A DNA stretch of 58,128 bases from Myxococcaceae bacterium (GTDB lineage Bacteria; Myxococcota; Myxococcia; Myxococcales; Myxococcaceae), in NCBI GenBank assembly GCA_019694595.1, contig JAIBBQ010000017.1:1-58128 (forward strand). Reading direction: 5' to 3'. Made by a program: the position numbers and the translations under genes. The notes beneath the pieces were generated by a model. That model was given only the letters and a program-made list of their open reading frames with translations, did no database searches and had not been told where the DNA came from. This document shows, in pieces, positions 45,483-51,762 of the stretch (position 1 is its first letter; each line of letters opens with the position of its first letter).

Positions 45483-46340
45483 TCAGTTCACGCCGCCGCC
45501 GGTGCCGTTGCCACCCGAGCCGCCGGCGCCGCCCGCGCCACCCATGCTGATGGTGCCGCCGTCGGCCGCGCAGCTCGAGCTGCCGCTGGTGGGGTGCAGG
45601 TCGTCCTCGGAGTCGCAGTCCGCCTTCTCGTGGCCGCAGCCGTGCATCGAGACGTGGCCGCCGTGCTCGACCTCGGCGTGGCACTCGTTGTCGTCGTCGT
45701 CGTGCTTCACGCCGCCGTCGGCCGAGTGGTGGTCGTCATCGTCGTCGTCCTTGGCGCCGCCGTCGCTCTTGTGGTCGTCGTCGTCGTCGGAATCCACGCC
45801 GCCGTCGGACGAGCCGTGGTGGTCGTCGTCGGACTTCACGCCGCCGTCGGACTTCTGGTCGCAGTCCTTGTCGTCGCCGCCCTTGCCGCTCGACGAGCCG
45901 CCGTCGCTCTTGTGATCGTCGTCGTCGTCACCCTTGAGCGACTGCTGGGTGCTCCCGGCGACGCAGGTCTGCGCCACGGTGTCGAGGTTGGCGATGGCCT
46001 CGGGGCGGGCGAGACCGGCCGGGCGCACCACGCCGAGGTCGAGCCGGGGACCGGCGGTGACCTTGAACCAGTCGGGGCCGATGTGGCGCTCGGCGATCAC
46101 GGTGCCGTCGGCGGCCGCCCGGCCGATGACCAGCCGCACCGGCTGGTCGACGGGGATCGCCAGGGCGAAGAGGCCGCGGGCGGTGACGTGGCTGACCGTC
46201 TGCTGACCATCGGCGGTCTGGCTGACGACGAGCGTCTGGGAAACCGGGATCCCGGCGAGCTGACCCTGGACCTCACGGGTTCCCTGGGAGCCGCAGGCCG
46301 CGGCGAGCAGGGCGAGAGAGGCGATGACGACGTGGCGCAT
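45483..46340 (-). CDS. Acidic Asp/His-rich lipoprotein 1, paralogue of 46588-47670
   Basis: 285 residues. Lipoprotein signal (IASLALLAAAC, Cys16). Residues about 20-130 form a beta-rich domain shared with the neighbour (REVQGQLAGI; AERHIGPDWFKV; GPRLDLGVVRP). Next comes a remarkable block of Asp runs and S/A-D-G-G units, with His (DDDDDHKSDGG and similar, about 145-225). A shared Cys motif follows (EVEHGGHVSMHGCGHEKADC) and a Gly-rich tail. The acidic block should bind Ca2+ or other cations, and the conserved Cys could form disulfides. AAGGAG precedes the ATG at 46340. A sigma-54-like promoter and palindrome lie upstream. No known family is recognised. Confidence 0.78.
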   Translation of the reverse strand: MRHVVIASLALLAAACGSQGTREVQGQLAGIPVSQTLVVSQTADGQQTVSHVTARGLFALAIPVDQPVRLVIGRAAADGTVIAERHIGPDWFKVTAGPRLDLGVVRPAGLARPEAIANLDTVAQTCVAGSTQQSLKGDDDDDHKSDGGSSSGKGGDDKDCDQKSDGGVKSDDDHHGSSDGGVDSDDDDDHKSDGGAKDDDDDDHHSADGGVKHDDDDNECHAEVEHGGHVSMHGCGHEKADCDSEDDLHPTSGSSSCAADGGTISMGGAGGAGGSGGNGTGGGVN

Positions 46341-46380
46341 GTGGAACTCCTTGTTCGAATGGGGCTGCGGGCCCCTGCAT

Positions 46381-46396
46381 TTCAAGCGCTGCGCCA
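46381..46396 (-). promoter_or_regulatory. Sigma-54-like promoter of lipoprotein 1
   Basis: Minus strand TGGCGC (46396-46391), 5 bp, TTGAA (46385-46381); consensus TGGCAC-N5-TTGCA. The -24 box is good, but the -12 box has GA instead of GC. It leaves a leader of about 30 nt to the ATG. The same TGGCGC-N5-TTGAA is found before the paralogue. Confidence 0.55.
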
Positions 46397-46446
46397 CCGG
46401 GAGCCGTGCCAAGTGCTCGGAATCCGAAGTGGGCCGAGGTGGGTGT

Positions 46447-46464
46447 TGTCAGGTGGATCTGACA
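46447..46464. promoter_or_regulatory. Palindrome TGTCAG-GTGGAT-CTGACA, candidate activator site (copy 1)
   Basis: Perfect 6-bp arms with a 6-bp spacer, centred 62 bp upstream of the -24 box of lipoprotein 1. It is identical in arms to the copies at 47776 and 53657. Confidence 0.7.
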
Positions 46465-46517
46465 GCCGGCACATCGACGCCCGCCGAGTGTCAAGGCGCG
46501 TTGCCCCGCAACGCACC

Positions 46518-46560
46518 GCGGCCCACGCCCCTCCCTTTCGAAGGAGGAAACGTGGGCCGC
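46518..46560 (-). terminator. Terminator-like long hairpin after lipoprotein 2
   Basis: GCGGCCCACG (46518-46527) pairs perfectly with CGTGGGCCGC (46551-46560); inner CCTCC/GGAGG segments pair as well. It lies 28 bp downstream of the lipoprotein 2 stop. Confidence 0.6.
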
Positions 46561-46587
46561 GATCACCTCAGGGGGGAAGTTCTCGGC

Positions 46588-47670
46588 TCAGCCGATCGGC
46601 GGGGGAATGCCACCGACGCCGGTGGTGCTGCCGGTGCCGCCGGCCGGCGGGTTGCTGCCGACGCCGGTGGTGCCGCCGGTCGCGCCGCCCGCTGCGCCAC
46701 CCGCCGCGCCGCCCGCGGCCGAGCAGGTGTTGGTCGTCGACGAGGCCTCGGTGGCTTCGAGCGACTTCTCGGCGTCGCAGTCGGCCTTCGCGGTGCCGCA
46801 GTTCTCGACCTCCACGTGGCCGCCGTGCTCGACCTCCGGGGTCTCGCCGGCCTCGTGGCAGGCGCCGTCGTCGCTGCCGCCGCTGCCGCTGCCGCTCGAC
46901 GAGCCGCCGCTGGTCTCGTCACCCGACAGCGGGGCCGAGCTCGAGCCGCCGCCGTCGCAGTAGCGCAGGTCGAGGTGGTCGGTCTCCTGGCTGCCGTCGG
47001 CGTTCTCCCAGGTGATGAAGGCGCGGTCGCGGCCCACGTCGCGGTTGCCCATGTGCGAGCAGTCGGCCGCGGTCACGGTGAAGCTGGCGTTGGACTTGAG
47101 CTCCGCCAGGCGCCAGTCGCCGCCGTCCATGGTGACCGAGACGATCTTCGCGGGAACCGGCCCCTTCTCGAGGAAGGCGTCGGTGAGCTTGAAGTTCTGG
47201 CCGACGGCGAGCTTCACGTCGTACGGCAGGTCGGCGCGCCCCGGCGCCGTGGTGGTGGTCGACGTCGAGGTTTCCTTCGGAGTGCCGCTGCAGCTGCCCG
47301 ACGCAGGGGCGGTGGTGCCTTCGATCAGCACCTGCGGGTTGGCGACGCCCTCGGGGCGCACCAGGCCGAGATCGAGGCGGGGGCCCTGGGCGACCTTGAA
47401 CCACTCGGGGCCGATGTGGCGCTCGGCGACCGCGACGCCGCTCTGGCCTTCGCGGGCGATGATCAGCCGCGCAGGCACGTCGACCGCGACCTCGATGGCG
47501 AAGCGGCCGTCGGGGCTCACGTGGGCCACGCCGACCTGACGGTCGGGGGTCTCGCTGAGCACCATCGCTTTGCTCAGGGAGATGCCGGCGAGCTGGCCCT
47601 GGACCTCGCGGGTCGCGGGGCCGCCACAGGCGGCGAGGATGACGCAGGCGGCGAGTGTGACGTGGCGCAT
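46588..47670 (-). CDS. Cys-motif lipoprotein 2, paralogue of 45483-46340
   Basis: 360 residues. Lipoprotein signal (AACVILAAC, Cys15). The N-terminal domain is shared with lipoprotein 1 (REVQGQLAGISLSKAMVLS; AERHIGPEWFKV; GPRLDLGLVRPEGVA). A middle domain of about 90 residues is absent from lipoprotein 1 (LPYDVKLAVGQNFKLTDAFL, CSHMGNRDVGRDRAFITW). A Ser/Gly/Asp linker, the shared Cys motif (EVEHGGHVEVENCGTAKADC) and a Gly/Ala/Thr tail follow. AAAGGAA precedes the ATG at 47670. It has the same type of upstream promoter and palindrome as lipoprotein 1. It is probably an envelope protein made under a specific signal; function unknown. Confidence 0.78.
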   Translation of the reverse strand: MRHVTLAACVILAACGGPATREVQGQLAGISLSKAMVLSETPDRQVGVAHVSPDGRFAIEVAVDVPARLIIAREGQSGVAVAERHIGPEWFKVAQGPRLDLGLVRPEGVANPQVLIEGTTAPASGSCSGTPKETSTSTTTTAPGRADLPYDVKLAVGQNFKLTDAFLEKGPVPAKIVSVTMDGGDWRLAELKSNASFTVTAADCSHMGNRDVGRDRAFITWENADGSQETDHLDLRYCDGGGSSSAPLSGDETSGGSSSGSGSGGSDDGACHEAGETPEVEHGGHVEVENCGTAKADCDAEKSLEATEASSTTNTCSAAGGAAGGAAGGATGGTTGVGSNPPAGGTGSTTGVGGIPPPIG

Positions 47671-47836: not shown

Positions 47837-48763
47837 TCAGCGGGTCGGGTTCTTCTCGAAGCGCCGGGCCAGGCCGTCGAGCGCCGCGGCCGTCTCGCCG
47901 CTCGCCGCGCTGCGCGCCTGGGCGATGAGGTCGGGGGTCTGCGGCGCGTCGACCACCATGAGGGCGTCGCTCGCCGCCGCACGCACCTCGCCGCTCTCGG
48001 TGGCGAAGACGCGCACCAGGGCGCGGGCCGCGGTGGCGCGGACCTCGGCCTCTTCGGTGCGCGCGGTGACGCCCGGGGTCTTCCAGGCCCATGCGTTGCC
48101 CACCTCGCCCAGCGCGCGCACCACCGCGATGCGCTCACGCACCTCGGCGGGCTCGAGCGCGCGGGCGGCGAGCTCGGCGGCGACCACCGTGCGGCGGCAG
48201 CTGCCCATGCCGGCGCGGATCGCCTTGGCGGCGTCGCCTCCGGCCTGCGAGCGGCGGACGAGCTCGGCCGCCGCGGCGTCGGTCTGACGCATGCCGTAGG
48301 CGTCGGCCGCGGTGCGCAGCACGTCGGGGTTCTGCCGCGGGCTCGAGAGCACCGCGAGCAGCACCGGCTCGGCCTCGGGGCTGCGCAGGTCGCCCAGCGC
48401 CTCGAGGATGCCGATGGTGACCGCCTTGGCCGCGAGCGGCGTGAGCTGCGCGGTGCCCTGGTCGAGCGCCAGCACCTCGAGCATCGGGTACAGGGCGCCC
48501 GGGCCCACCTGCTTGAAGGCCCGGCCCATGGGGGCGAGCGGCCCGCGCTTCTTGGCGTCGAGCGTGTTGGCGCTCTGCACCAGCTCACGCACGGCGTCGT
48601 ACGGCCCAGGCGCGTTGATGCGCGCCGCGCCGAGCTGCGCCTGGAGCGCGCGCACGGTCCCGGCAGGCAGCTCCTCGGCCGAGAGGGCCACGCCGCCGGC
48701 GAACGCCAGCGGAGCGCCGAGCACCGCCGCGAGCAGGAACGACTTCGAGATTCGCGCGCTCAT
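47837..48763 (-). CDS. Exported HEAT-repeat-like protein
   Basis: 308 residues: signal peptide (SFLLAAVLGAPLAFA), then Ala/Leu/Arg-rich helical pairs with HEAT/armadillo character (TIGILEALGDLRSPEAEPVL, IAVVRALGEVGNAWAW, TAARALVRVFATESGEVRAA). Such solenoids bind protein partners. The ATG overlaps the stop of the deiminase gene as ATGA, so the two exported proteins are made together and may interact. No catalytic motif. Confidence 0.72.
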   Translation of the reverse strand: MSARISKSFLLAAVLGAPLAFAGGVALSAEELPAGTVRALQAQLGAARINAPGPYDAVRELVQSANTLDAKKRGPLAPMGRAFKQVGPGALYPMLEVLALDQGTAQLTPLAAKAVTIGILEALGDLRSPEAEPVLLAVLSSPRQNPDVLRTAADAYGMRQTDAAAAELVRRSQAGGDAAKAIRAGMGSCRRTVVAAELAARALEPAEVRERIAVVRALGEVGNAWAWKTPGVTARTEEAEVRATAARALVRVFATESGEVRAAASDALMVVDAPQTPDLIAQARSAASGETAAALDGLARRFEKNPTR

Positions 48764-50757
48764 CGTCCGGTCTCCCACCACATCGTCGAAGGAATCTTCC
48801 GTGCCGCGTTGGAGCCGCAGTGAACCTCGCCGGCGTTGATGTGGTACAGGTACCAGTCCTCCACCCAGCTGACCGAGACGCCGAACGGCTTGAGCGCGTC
48901 CTCGAGCTGGACCTTGAAGATGTCCTTGCCGCCGATGATCGGCCCGTGGGTCTCGGGCGGGGCGAAGACCTTGTTGTTCACCAGCAGGCCGTTGGCGGTG
49001 CCCGGCTGGTAGGCGAGCGCCACGCCCATCACCTTCTCGTGCAGGTACGGCACGTGGATGATCTCGGCGTCGGTGAGCCCGGTGGCGTTCTTGATGATGT
49101 CGAGCTGGGCGTCGACCGCGGCGGCGGCGGTGGCGCTCTCGGCCATCAGCGCGGTGTCGGCGAGCACCTGGTTGATGGTGCGCGAGGCCGAGACGTACGC
49201 GGTGCCCTGGGCGTTGTAGGTCTGCTGTCCGGGGAACATCACCGCGCTGCCGTTGCCGGCGGTGACCTGGTCCTGGAGCATCTGCTTCGCCAGGCGCGCG
49301 TCGTTGACGAGCAGGATCCACCCGCGCGGCGAGTTGACGGGAACGAAGCTCACCGTCTCGTCGATGTGGCCGACGAGCAGCCACGAGGTGTCGACGTAGA
49401 CCGGCGGCTGGATCGCCTGCGACTCCATCATCTTCAGGAAGCTCTGGTCGGGGTGATAGCTGGGCACGTTGCCGCGGATGATGCGGCCCAGCGGGTAGTT
49501 CACGCCGCCGAACGAGTACGGGGGAATCGTCTCCAGGTTGCCGAAGGAGTTGAGCGTGTCCTCGGTCGACGAGCCGGGCGAGAACTGCTGCACGGTGCCG
49601 ATGTTGGGCCCGCGCAGCGTGCTGTAGATGATCTTGCCGGCCGGGCGCAGCGGGTCGGCGGTGCTGCCGCCGTACACGTTCGCCGAGCGGATGCCGACGC
49701 GCATGGTGTGCGGGCCGCTCTTGCCGGGCATGGTCATGTAGCCGGTCTCGAAGAAGTCCTCGGCCCACTGGTCGGGGCCGTTGCCGTCGAAGTCGGTCTG
49801 CAGACCGACCAGCGGGGTGGGCACGCCGCCCAGGGTGAGCGCCGCCTGGAGCCCGTTGCGGAAGTCGACCGAGTCGCGGTCCGGGAAGGCGGTGGCGTAC
49901 GCGGTCTCGACCTCGGTGATGTGGCTGAAGGTGAGCAGCGGGGCCACGCGCATCAGCACCTGGTCGATCTGGAGGATCTCCTCGTACTTCTCGCCGCCGT
50001 CCCACACGCCAGGGGTGCCCGGGCTGCCGTCGGCCTTGCCGGTCTTCACGGTGAGCACCAGGCCGACCATGCCGTCCCACACCGCGCGGTCGCGGACCAG
50101 GTCCTTGGCCTCGATGCGCAGGTCGATGCCCTTGCGCAGATCGGCGGCGCTCAGGGTGTCGGTCTCGGGGTTGAACTCCGACCACATCTGCCACGAGGTG
50201 AGGTCGGTCGCGCCCTGGACCGGGCGGAAGATGCGCACGCGGGGCGCGGCGGCCGAGCTCACCGAGATGGTCGCGGTGGCGGTGTCGGGCGCCTTGGGCC
50301 AGGGGAGCACCTTGAGCGGCGCGAGGTCTTCGAGGTCGGTGTCGCCGTTGACGATCTGGTCCGCGCCGTCGAAGCACTTGGCGAGGTCGATGTCGGTGCC
50401 GGTCTTGGCGCAGCGCGCGTCGTCGTCGTCGAGGTTGGGCAGGAGGATCGCGCCGGCGTCGGTCGACCAGGCTTCCTCGGTGGCGTCGTCGAGCGCGCCG
50501 GTGAGGTCGAGCACGCCGTCGCGGTTCACGTCGGCGCGGAGGTCGACGATGGGCGGGTCGACCATCATCTGCGCCATGCCGCCGCCGGAGCCCGAGGTCC
50601 CGCCGCCGGAGCTGGTGGCCCCGCCGCCGCTGGCCGTGGAGCCGCCGCTGCCGCCGTTCCCGCCGCTGCCAGCGCCGCTCGAGCCGCCACTCCCACCGCA
50701 CCCGGCGATCACACCCGCCAGCGCCAAGAAGCCCACTGCCCAAGCTGTTGTGCGCAT
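48760..50757 (-). CDS. Peptidylarginine deiminase (PAD)-family lipoprotein
   Basis: 665 residues. Lipoprotein signal (FLALAGVIAGC, Cys20) and a Gly-Ser linker. An EF-like acidic segment (DVNRDGVLDLTGALDD) lies near 85. The C-terminal ~350 residues match the animal-type PAD catalytic domain. Visible catalytic positions are the Asp in WAEDFFETGY near 334, the His and Asp in VGHIDETVSFVP near 464/466, and the Cys in GEVHCGSN near 647. All four residues equivalent to Asp350, His471, Asp473 and Cys645 of human PAD4 are present. PADs convert protein arginine to citrulline with Ca2+. An envelope-anchored version could modify the cell's own or prey surface proteins. It is followed by the coupled HEAT-repeat gene. 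CGAGGTG precedes the ATG. Confidence 0.85.
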   Translation of the reverse strand: MRTTAWAVGFLALAGVIAGCGGSGGSSGAGSGGNGGSGGSTASGGGATSSGGGTSGSGGGMAQMMVDPPIVDLRADVNRDGVLDLTGALDDATEEAWSTDAGAILLPNLDDDDARCAKTGTDIDLAKCFDGADQIVNGDTDLEDLAPLKVLPWPKAPDTATATISVSSAAAPRVRIFRPVQGATDLTSWQMWSEFNPETDTLSAADLRKGIDLRIEAKDLVRDRAVWDGMVGLVLTVKTGKADGSPGTPGVWDGGEKYEEILQIDQVLMRVAPLLTFSHITEVETAYATAFPDRDSVDFRNGLQAALTLGGVPTPLVGLQTDFDGNGPDQWAEDFFETGYMTMPGKSGPHTMRVGIRSANVYGGSTADPLRPAGKIIYSTLRGPNIGTVQQFSPGSSTEDTLNSFGNLETIPPYSFGGVNYPLGRIIRGNVPSYHPDQSFLKMMESQAIQPPVYVDTSWLLVGHIDETVSFVPVNSPRGWILLVNDARLAKQMLQDQVTAGNGSAVMFPGQQTYNAQGTAYVSASRTINQVLADTALMAESATAAAAVDAQLDIIKNATGLTDAEIIHVPYLHEKVMGVALAYQPGTANGLLVNNKVFAPPETHGPIIGGKDIFKVQLEDALKPFGVSVSWVEDWYLYHINAGEVHCGSNAARKIPSTMWWETGR

Positions 50758-50865: not shown

Positions 50866-51762
50866 TCAGGGCCGCGGCGGCGCCACCAGCTCCTGCCAGA
50901 GCGAGCGTGGGCCGGGAGGCGAGAGGCCCAGGGTGGGGGGCGTCTTCGGCGCGGGCCGGAAGGTTCCGAAGACCCGGTCCCACAGCACGGTGTGGCAGCC
51001 GTAGTTGCACGCGCCGAGCTGCACCTCGGCGGCGTGGTGGAGCGCGTGAATGGCGGGCACGTTGAGGAGCAGGCCGCCCAGCCGGGGAGACACCTCGACG
51101 TTGGCGTGCGCGAGGATCCCCAGCACGCCGCAGAGGTAGCCCGCGGTCGAGACCTCCTCGGCGCCGGCGCCGAGCACCACGAGTGGAATGGTGCGCGCGA
51201 GGAAGAAGAGGACGTTGTCGAGCGGGTGCGTGCGCAGCGCCGCGGCGCCGGTGAGCTCGGCCACCACGTGGTGGGTGGAGTGGAAGCGCCAGAGCAGGGG
51301 CACGCGGTGCGCGGCGCGGTGGTAGCCGTAGCTGCCGAGCTCGAGGACGAAGAAGGCCAGCGCCACGCGGGCAGCGAAGGGCGCCGCGCTGGGCCAGAGC
51401 CGGGGCCGATCGAGCGCCAGCCCCAGGGCCGCGAGTCTCGAGGTGAGCTCGCGATCGACCAGGGTGATGGCGAGCGCACTGAGCTGGGTGACGATGAAGA
51501 CGTAGAAGAGGTCTCGCCCGAGGCGGCGGATGCCGTCTGGCTTGCCCGACAGCAGCCGGTAGTTCCACGCGGGGACCGCCGGGAACACCTGCTCGGCCAC
51601 GAACACCGCGAGCAGGGTCAGCAGCAGCGCGACGGTGCCGAAGTCCACCTTGAGTGCGAAGTGCGCGACGAGCGCCTCGCGCCAGATCCACGCTGCGGCG
51701 GAGACCCCGAGGACGGTGGGGAGGAACGCGAAGCGGAAGATCGCCCGGGCAGCGTCGCTCAC
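50866..51762 (-). CDS. Sterol desaturase/fatty acid hydroxylase-superfamily membrane protein
   Basis: 298 residues with about five membrane helices. The three histidine clusters are HRAAH, HSTHH and HALHH, which bind the di-iron centre (third cluster followed by NYGCH). The enzyme would hydroxylate or desaturate a membrane lipid, possibly a sterol, which some myxobacteria make. The substrate cannot be told. It starts at GTG 51762, divergent from the outer-membrane protein gene. Confidence 0.87.
   Translation of the reverse strand: MSDAARAIFRFAFLPTVLGVSAAAWIWREALVAHFALKVDFGTVALLLTLLAVFVAEQVFPAVPAWNYRLLSGKPDGIRRLGRDLFYVFIVTQLSALAITLVDRELTSRLAALGLALDRPRLWPSAAPFAARVALAFFVLELGSYGYHRAAHRVPLLWRFHSTHHVVAELTGAAALRTHPLDNVLFFLARTIPLVVLGAGAEEVSTAGYLCGVLGILAHANVEVSPRLGGLLLNVPAIHALHHAAEVQLGACNYGCHTVLWDRVFGTFRPAPKTPPTLGLSPPGPRSLWQELVAPPRP

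Follow-up and report, generated by a model that had tools for sequence, protein, structure and literature searches.

We describe here a pair of overlapping genes from a Myxococcaceae bacterium (GenBank assembly GCA_019694595.1). They lie in positions 1 to 58,128 of contig JAIBBQ010000017.1, the whole stretch of 58,128 nucleotides that was analysed and that we call the window. The first gene encodes a predicted lipoprotein of the peptidylarginine deiminase (PAD) family, and the second encodes a HEAT-repeat protein. Gene starts were chosen by rule, and signal peptides were called with simple criteria of hydrophobicity and lipobox, with no trained predictor. Correspondence to human PAD4 comes from a MAFFT alignment in which the PAD4 numbering was checked. 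The features of the pair are as follows.

48760..50757, minus strand: PAD lipoprotein gene, 665 amino acids plus stop (ATG at 50757, stop ending at 48760)
50698..50757, minus strand: predicted lipoprotein signal peptide (residues 1-19) and acylated Cys20, lipobox VIAGC, with Gly at +2
50566..50697, minus strand: Gly/Ser-rich linker, about residues 21-64, where PAD_N would be (from sequence; no PAD_N match)
50203..50547, minus strand: PAD_M-like middle domain (residues 71-185; subthreshold Pfam match, structural alignment from PAD4 residue 112-114 on)
50515..50532, minus strand: acidic motif DVNRDG (residues 76-81), by alignment
50326..50436, minus strand: Ca3/Ca4 ligand stretch N108-D144, by alignment, with ligand roles from PMC3559651
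48772..49968, minus strand: PAD catalytic domain (residues 264-662), Pfam PF03068
49756..49758, minus strand: catalytic D334 (PAD4 D350), by alignment
49360..49368, minus strand: catalytic H464 and D466 (PAD4 H471 and D473), by alignment
48817..48819, minus strand: catalytic nucleophile C647 (PAD4 C645), by alignment
48760..48763, minus strand: ATGA overlap, the HEAT start lying on the PAD stop codon TGA
47837..48763, minus strand: HEAT-repeat partner gene, 308 amino acids

An original prediction had placed an animal-type PAD in a bacterial lipoprotein at this locus, with all four catalytic positions of PAD4 present and with a character distinct from that of the Porphyromonas enzyme, and had suggested that the anchored enzyme may citrullinate self or prey proteins. 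Membership of the PAD family proper is borne out by our searches. Pfam PF03068 matches residues 264-662 with 294 bits and E 1.9e-87 over profile positions 4-395 of 395 (296 bits and E 7.2e-88 in a search of the whole genome), and homology to human PAD4 extends over residues 71-662 (phmmer E 3e-48). All four catalytic positions could indeed be placed, at D334, H464, D466 and C647. PAD and PAD_M were the only families matched when Pfam was scanned at E up to 1; the absence of a match to the family of the Porphyromonas enzyme (PPAD) rules out the Porphyromonas type. PAD_M is present at residues 71-185, yet below the Pfam cut-off (20.2 versus 24.8 bits); the middle domain searched alone against PDB sequences gave no match, and NCBIfam and PHROGs returned no family for the protein. 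The N-terminus, MRTTAWAVGFLALAGVIAGC, is a signal peptide with a lipobox and has Cys20 as its last residue; VIAGC20 follows a hydrophobic segment, so that lipidation is predicted and the assignment as a bacterial lipoprotein holds. The same genome carries a second PAD copy on another contig, 68.5% identical to the window copy.

The predicted structure points the same way. An AlphaFold2 model built on 43 Myxococcota sequences (mean pLDDT 91.8, pTM 0.91) has PAD4 structures ranking first in Foldseek, and VIA-align superposes it on inhibitor-bound PAD4 (3b1u) over 517 residues with Z 50.6, rmsd 1.8 A and 28% structural identity; Z is lower, about 40-42, for Ca2+-free PAD2 structures. A predicted structure with an unassembled active site had been named beforehand as a reason to abandon the prediction. 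What the model gives, at the level of the fold, is a well-formed PAD that includes the middle domain, and this fold together with the E-values rules out chance motif matches as the origin of the likeness. The four catalytic residues are invariant across the aligned Myxococcota PADs except at locus L087 (6038-8059, minus strand), a lipoprotein relative in which they are replaced by N, G, G and D; it is a probable pseudoenzyme, and its genome has two other PADs. W331 and V462 of the window PAD correspond to W347 and V469 of the PAD4 substrate pocket, both of which are needed in that enzyme (PMC5314407).

Conservation of the calcium sites differs from site to site. The Ca3 ligands are all kept, with N108, D110, D112, D130, D141 and D144 at the positions of PAD4 N153, D155, D157, D165, D176 and D179; among the PAD4 Ca3/4 ligands, N153, D155, D157 and D179 are required for activity (PMC3559651). 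The Ca1 ligands are kept as well, with E333 replacing Q349, as are most Ca4 ligands; the calcium-switch aspartate (D388 in PAD4, D389 in PAD2) is N385 in the window copy and Asp in most relatives. At the Ca2 site, PAD4 E351, D369 and N373 are replaced by F335, R357 and L370, where the alignment is uncertain near 370 and the loop around PAD4 369-374 is not reliably aligned. Across the main Myxococcota clade and the actinobacterial PADs one repeatedly finds an aromatic residue (sometimes Leu) at PAD4 position 351 and an arginine at 369. R357 may take over the role of Ca2 or of PAD4 R372. The DVNRDG motif, of the DxNxDG type, lies at the place of what we take to be the PAD2 Ca6 site, an assignment drawn in part from PMC8826395.

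Two kinds of PAD have been distinguished (Cummings et al., PMC8826395). Animals and late cyanobacteria have a form with three domains. The form in fungi, actinobacteria and proteobacteria has two: PAD_N is missing, the Ca2/Ca4 sites are altered, the Ca3-5 region carries an insert and the linker is of the triple-His kind. The window PAD has no PAD_N, only the signal peptide and the Gly/Ser linker preceding residue 71, with no Pfam match. It carries a long Ca3-5 loop insert common to actinobacterial sequences, and its linker between PAD_M and PAD_C reads FSHI; most of its clade (FHHL) has the His-rich linker of the actinobacterial sequences (THHH in Streptomyces). A phylogeny against cyanobacterial, fungal and animal PADs had been proposed as a check; our quick maximum-likelihood tree holds 68 rows, with one animal row, no cyanobacterial or fungal rows and SH-aLRT support only. 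In it the window PAD falls in a Myxococcota clade that groups with actinobacterial PADs, to the exclusion of PAD4 and of deep-branching Myxococcota PADs (SH-aLRT 99). The term "animal-type" thus survives at the level of the family, where PF03068 separates the protein from the Porphyromonas type, and is wrong as a subtype because PAD_N and the Ca2 ligands are missing and the tree groups it with actinobacterial PADs. The same observations rule out an animal-type PAD acquired by recent transfer.

The nearest outside group in the tree consists of the actinobacterial citrulassin-type PADs (Streptomyces; PMC9266682, PMC12971885), which resemble the window PAD in having two domains, lost Ca2 ligands, the Ca3-5 insert and export, and which differ from it in that no lipobox was seen and no HEAT gene was found beside the PAD gene in 27 loci; identity is 35-39%, and the Streptomyces proteins have Sec-type N-termini without a lipobox. 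Vertebrate PAD4 and PAD2 (PF03068, PF08527, PAD_N) share the PAD_M and PAD_C fold, the catalytic residues and the Ca1/Ca3 ligands, whereas the window PAD has no PAD_N, no Ca2 ligands, N at D388 and a lipoprotein signal. The cyanobacterial three-domain PADI is likewise a bacterial PAD, but its degenerate PAD_N, its Ca2/Ca4 sites and its grouping with animals set it apart as described (PMC8826395). Porphyromonas PPAD, an exported bacterial peptidylarginine deiminase like the window PAD, differs as an extended agmatine deiminase without PAD_M or PAD_N (PMC8826395).

The statement that bacterial PADs are little studied needs qualifying, as PADI has demonstrated Ca2+-dependent activity (PMC8826395) and the Streptomyces PAD makes citrulassin in vivo. 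Strains without the Streptomyces gene make the arginine form (PMC9266682; PMC12971885), and adding it converts a des-citrulassin producer to citrulassin (PMC9266682). Citrulassin A comes from S. albulus NRRL B-3066 (PMC9266682), which is apparently the same strain as that of our locus L163 (S. noursei strain B-3066). Because the L163 PAD has the same Ca2-site replacements as the window PAD and citrulassin is made in vivo, the absence of Ca2 ligands does not exclude activity.

The coupled HEAT gene and the spread through the Myxococcota did not figure in the original prediction, and the conserved PAD-HEAT pair is the more interesting feature. The partner has a predicted signal peptide at about residues 1-22, without a lipobox, and matches HEAT_2 with 35.3 bits against a cut-off of 27.7; PF13646 (HEAT_2) is matched by 56 of 61 members of its family. 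Its model is an all-helical solenoid (pLDDT 94.3) with structural matches only to general HEAT and artificial alphaRep proteins (best E 1.4e-3). As an alpha-solenoid it resembles HEAT_2 and PBS-lyase-like HEAT proteins; unlike them, it found no specific family above the casual level in NCBIfam. Within the partner family C189, R190, W225 and R242 are near-invariant and R73 nearly so, and the near-invariant stretches at residues 187-191 (GxCRR) and 225-229 (W-A-W-x-T) form a candidate binding surface.

Linkage of the two genes is close to complete. A search with the window HEAT protein gave 41 matches in 38 of 195 Myxococcota genomes, each adjoining a PAD, with at most 11 candidates scored per genome so that distant copies could be missed; among the genomes searched, the HEAT pair is found only in PAD-bearing myxobacteria. 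Conversely, 41 of the 43 main-clade PAD genes fetched have a HEAT partner (all but L040 and L074), directly downstream in 39 cases and upstream in two (L065, L066). In nearly all pairs the overlap between PAD stop and HEAT start measures 4 nt, starts listed at -19 or -22 containing an internal start codon at -4. Three genomes that have two PADs carry a separate HEAT gene for each of them, a pattern of co-duplication. Among named loci, which partly repeat the 195-genome set, a HEAT gene stands at 50 of 55 non-actinobacterial PADs, and three of the five exceptions are cut by contig ends. HEAT genes are common, with 78 first-look candidates in this genome and an estimated one gene per 100, a frequency at which the linkage is not due to chance; a random neighbour is ruled out by the linkage at 41 of 43 main-clade PADs. 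The pairwise distances among PADs track those among their HEAT partners (r 0.93, 28 pairs); this shows that the two are inherited together, not that they touch. No other neighbour of PAD is conserved across lineages, the recurrences being synteny within one genus.

A comparable arrangement occurs at the deep-branching lipoprotein PADs, which are 26-33% identical to the window PAD. Ten of eleven have an exported gene overlapping or at most 16 nt downstream, and nine of these ten partner genes have at least a weak HEAT_2 match. A profile of five deep-branching partners matches the main HEAT family with hhalign probability 98.1 and E 9.7e-14; as repeat proteins match easily, common descent is likely but unproven. 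At locus L088 (5331-8588, plus strand), a very divergent PAD without a recognised signal peptide lies about 22 nt before a HEAT_2 gene that also lacks one and that is a distant profile match to the exported partner family.

In the window itself, two tandem paralogous lipoprotein-like genes (MRHV...CG...TREVQGQLAG) lie downstream of the pair at 45483-47530 on the minus strand, one of them with a long Asp/His-rich repetitive tail. Upstream on the same strand, 50866-51762 encodes a fatty acid hydroxylase (PF04116) weakly like the ornithine lipid hydroxylase OlsE. No sigma-70 promoter or terminator patterns were found near the operon, a negative of little weight at this G+C.

Of the 195 Myxococcota genomes, 54 encode a PAD that scores above the Pfam cut-off; among the 149 good ones (at least 90% complete, at most 5% contaminated) the number is 49. 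A scan of named genomes yielded 452 PAD relatives, the best 80 of which include Myxococcus xanthus AM003, Pyxidicoccus, Polyangium, Labilithrix and many Streptomyces. By the lipobox rule nearly all Myxococcota PADs start with a lipobox. In M. xanthus lipoproteins, Lys at +2 marks the inner membrane and Ala at +7 the matrix (PMC3222651); because the window PAD has Gly at +2 and Ser at +7, the outer membrane is more likely than the inner as a default guess. Other architectures occur as well: the PADs of L085 (5942-8200, minus strand) and L086 (5249-7507, plus strand) have an N-terminal extension, weakly like CarboxypepD_reg in L085, with no lipobox and no adjoining HEAT gene, and L084 (5291-7942, plus strand) encodes a divergent PAD without a signal peptide that combines PAD_M and PAD with a C-terminal Ulp1-type C48 peptidase domain (E 8.4e-6). 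Carriage of PADs on plasmids was considered and set aside, with only four actinobacterial records. A search of the paper library available to us for PADs in myxobacteria found nothing relevant.

From the homology, the catalytic and calcium ligands, the predicted fold, the operon and the linkage, we infer that the window protein is probably a Ca2+-dependent, envelope-anchored peptidylarginine deiminase that has a stoichiometric HEAT partner and acts on extracytoplasmic proteins. The PAD would be exported by its lipoprotein signal, lipidated at Cys20 and held at the envelope on the Gly/Ser tether. There D334 and D466 would hold a peptidyl-arginine, whose guanidinium carbon the C647 thiolate would attack, with H464 as general acid/base; ammonia would leave, and hydrolysis would yield citrulline. 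The calcium present in the periplasm or extracellularly should be enough to fill the conserved Ca1 and Ca3/4 sites. The HEAT solenoid, soluble, exported and presumably translated by coupling from the overlapping ATGA, would dock on the PAD and control it or present its substrates, and perhaps does in trans part of what PAD_N does in animals. More tentatively, the pair may constitute a myxobacterial two-component extracytoplasmic citrullination system, in which the HEAT protein would be a subunit that acts in trans on a lipid-anchored PAD, to give it specificity or to activate it, and which would predate the split between main and deep-branching PADs.

Several observations weigh against this account of an active, partnered deiminase. 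The replacements E333 for Q349 at Ca1 and N385 for D388 at Ca4 are seldom seen in relatives or lie at positions that vary among them. PAD4 cannot bind peptide properly without R372 (PMC5314407), for which the window PAD offers no clear equivalent (N360), in a loop that has an indel. AlphaFold2 places no calcium and tends to the closed form. The genomic coupling shows co-production, not contact, and four PADs with full-length flanks (L040, L074, which is the same gene as L136, L077 and L104) have no partner, so that the HEAT protein is not strictly required.

One unlikely alternative keeps the PAD as an active envelope enzyme and makes the HEAT protein an inhibitor or immunity-like protein, rather than an adaptor, that shields the producer's periplasmic proteins. 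Strict one-to-one linkage, overlapping genes and co-duplication are also typical of toxin-immunity pairs, and the L088 PAD and HEAT genes, both without a recognised signal peptide, would fit as well. However, the PAD comes first in the operon and is lipid-anchored to its producer, and L040 and L074 have a PAD without HEAT and are presumably viable. Immunity proteins usually diversify, whereas the HEAT sequence is conserved (C189, R190, W225, R242); because of this conservation, and because PAD_N is missing, we prefer the adaptor. It also seems improbable that the substrate is free arginine, a small guanidino compound or a secreted peptide, as for the Streptomyces PAD, instead of envelope proteins. 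The closest functionally tested relatives do tailor lasso peptides (PMC9266682), but the two-domain fold matches protein-arginine deiminases over both domains, and no recurrent biosynthetic gene lies beside PAD, HEAT aside. This last absence is weak evidence, since the citrulassin pad gene is also unlinked.

The HEAT protein could also be the main substrate, citrullination of its conserved arginines switching the binding of a third partner, an idea that stoichiometric co-expression and the near-invariance of R73, R190 and R242 would accommodate. We consider it quite unlikely: GxGxxR is common in HEAT repeats, and in the model R242 is inside a predicted helix while R73 and R190 are beside helix ends. 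The ratio R/(R+K) is 0.75 in the HEAT family versus 0.74 in neighbouring genes, and an arginine-rich substrate was set aside on that account, the arginine share being not unusual. We also consider it quite unlikely that the protein, like mammalian PAD6, serves in binding or structure and deiminates weakly or not at all. The Ca2 ligands are absent, R372 and Q349 are replaced, and the phylum does contain a true pseudoenzyme that has lost all four catalytic residues (L087), but the window PAD keeps these four and the equivalents of W347 and V469, and sister-clade PADs that share its Ca2 pattern are active in vivo (PMC9266682).

Work on protein citrullination has, to our knowledge, been confined almost entirely to animals and a single oral pathogen. 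In a published census, 0.76% of bacterial species had a PAD, with 0.43% for Proteobacteria and 11% for cyanobacteria (PMC8826395). In our set a third of good Myxococcota genomes carry a PAD, which in nearly every case is a lipoprotein and in nearly every case is accompanied by the same partner. Because cultured myxobacteria (Myxococcus, Pyxidicoccus, Polyangium) carry PAD, a bacterial role of protein citrullination is directly testable, and the conserved partner would be an obvious candidate for a regulator or guide to substrates, to be set beside PAD_N.

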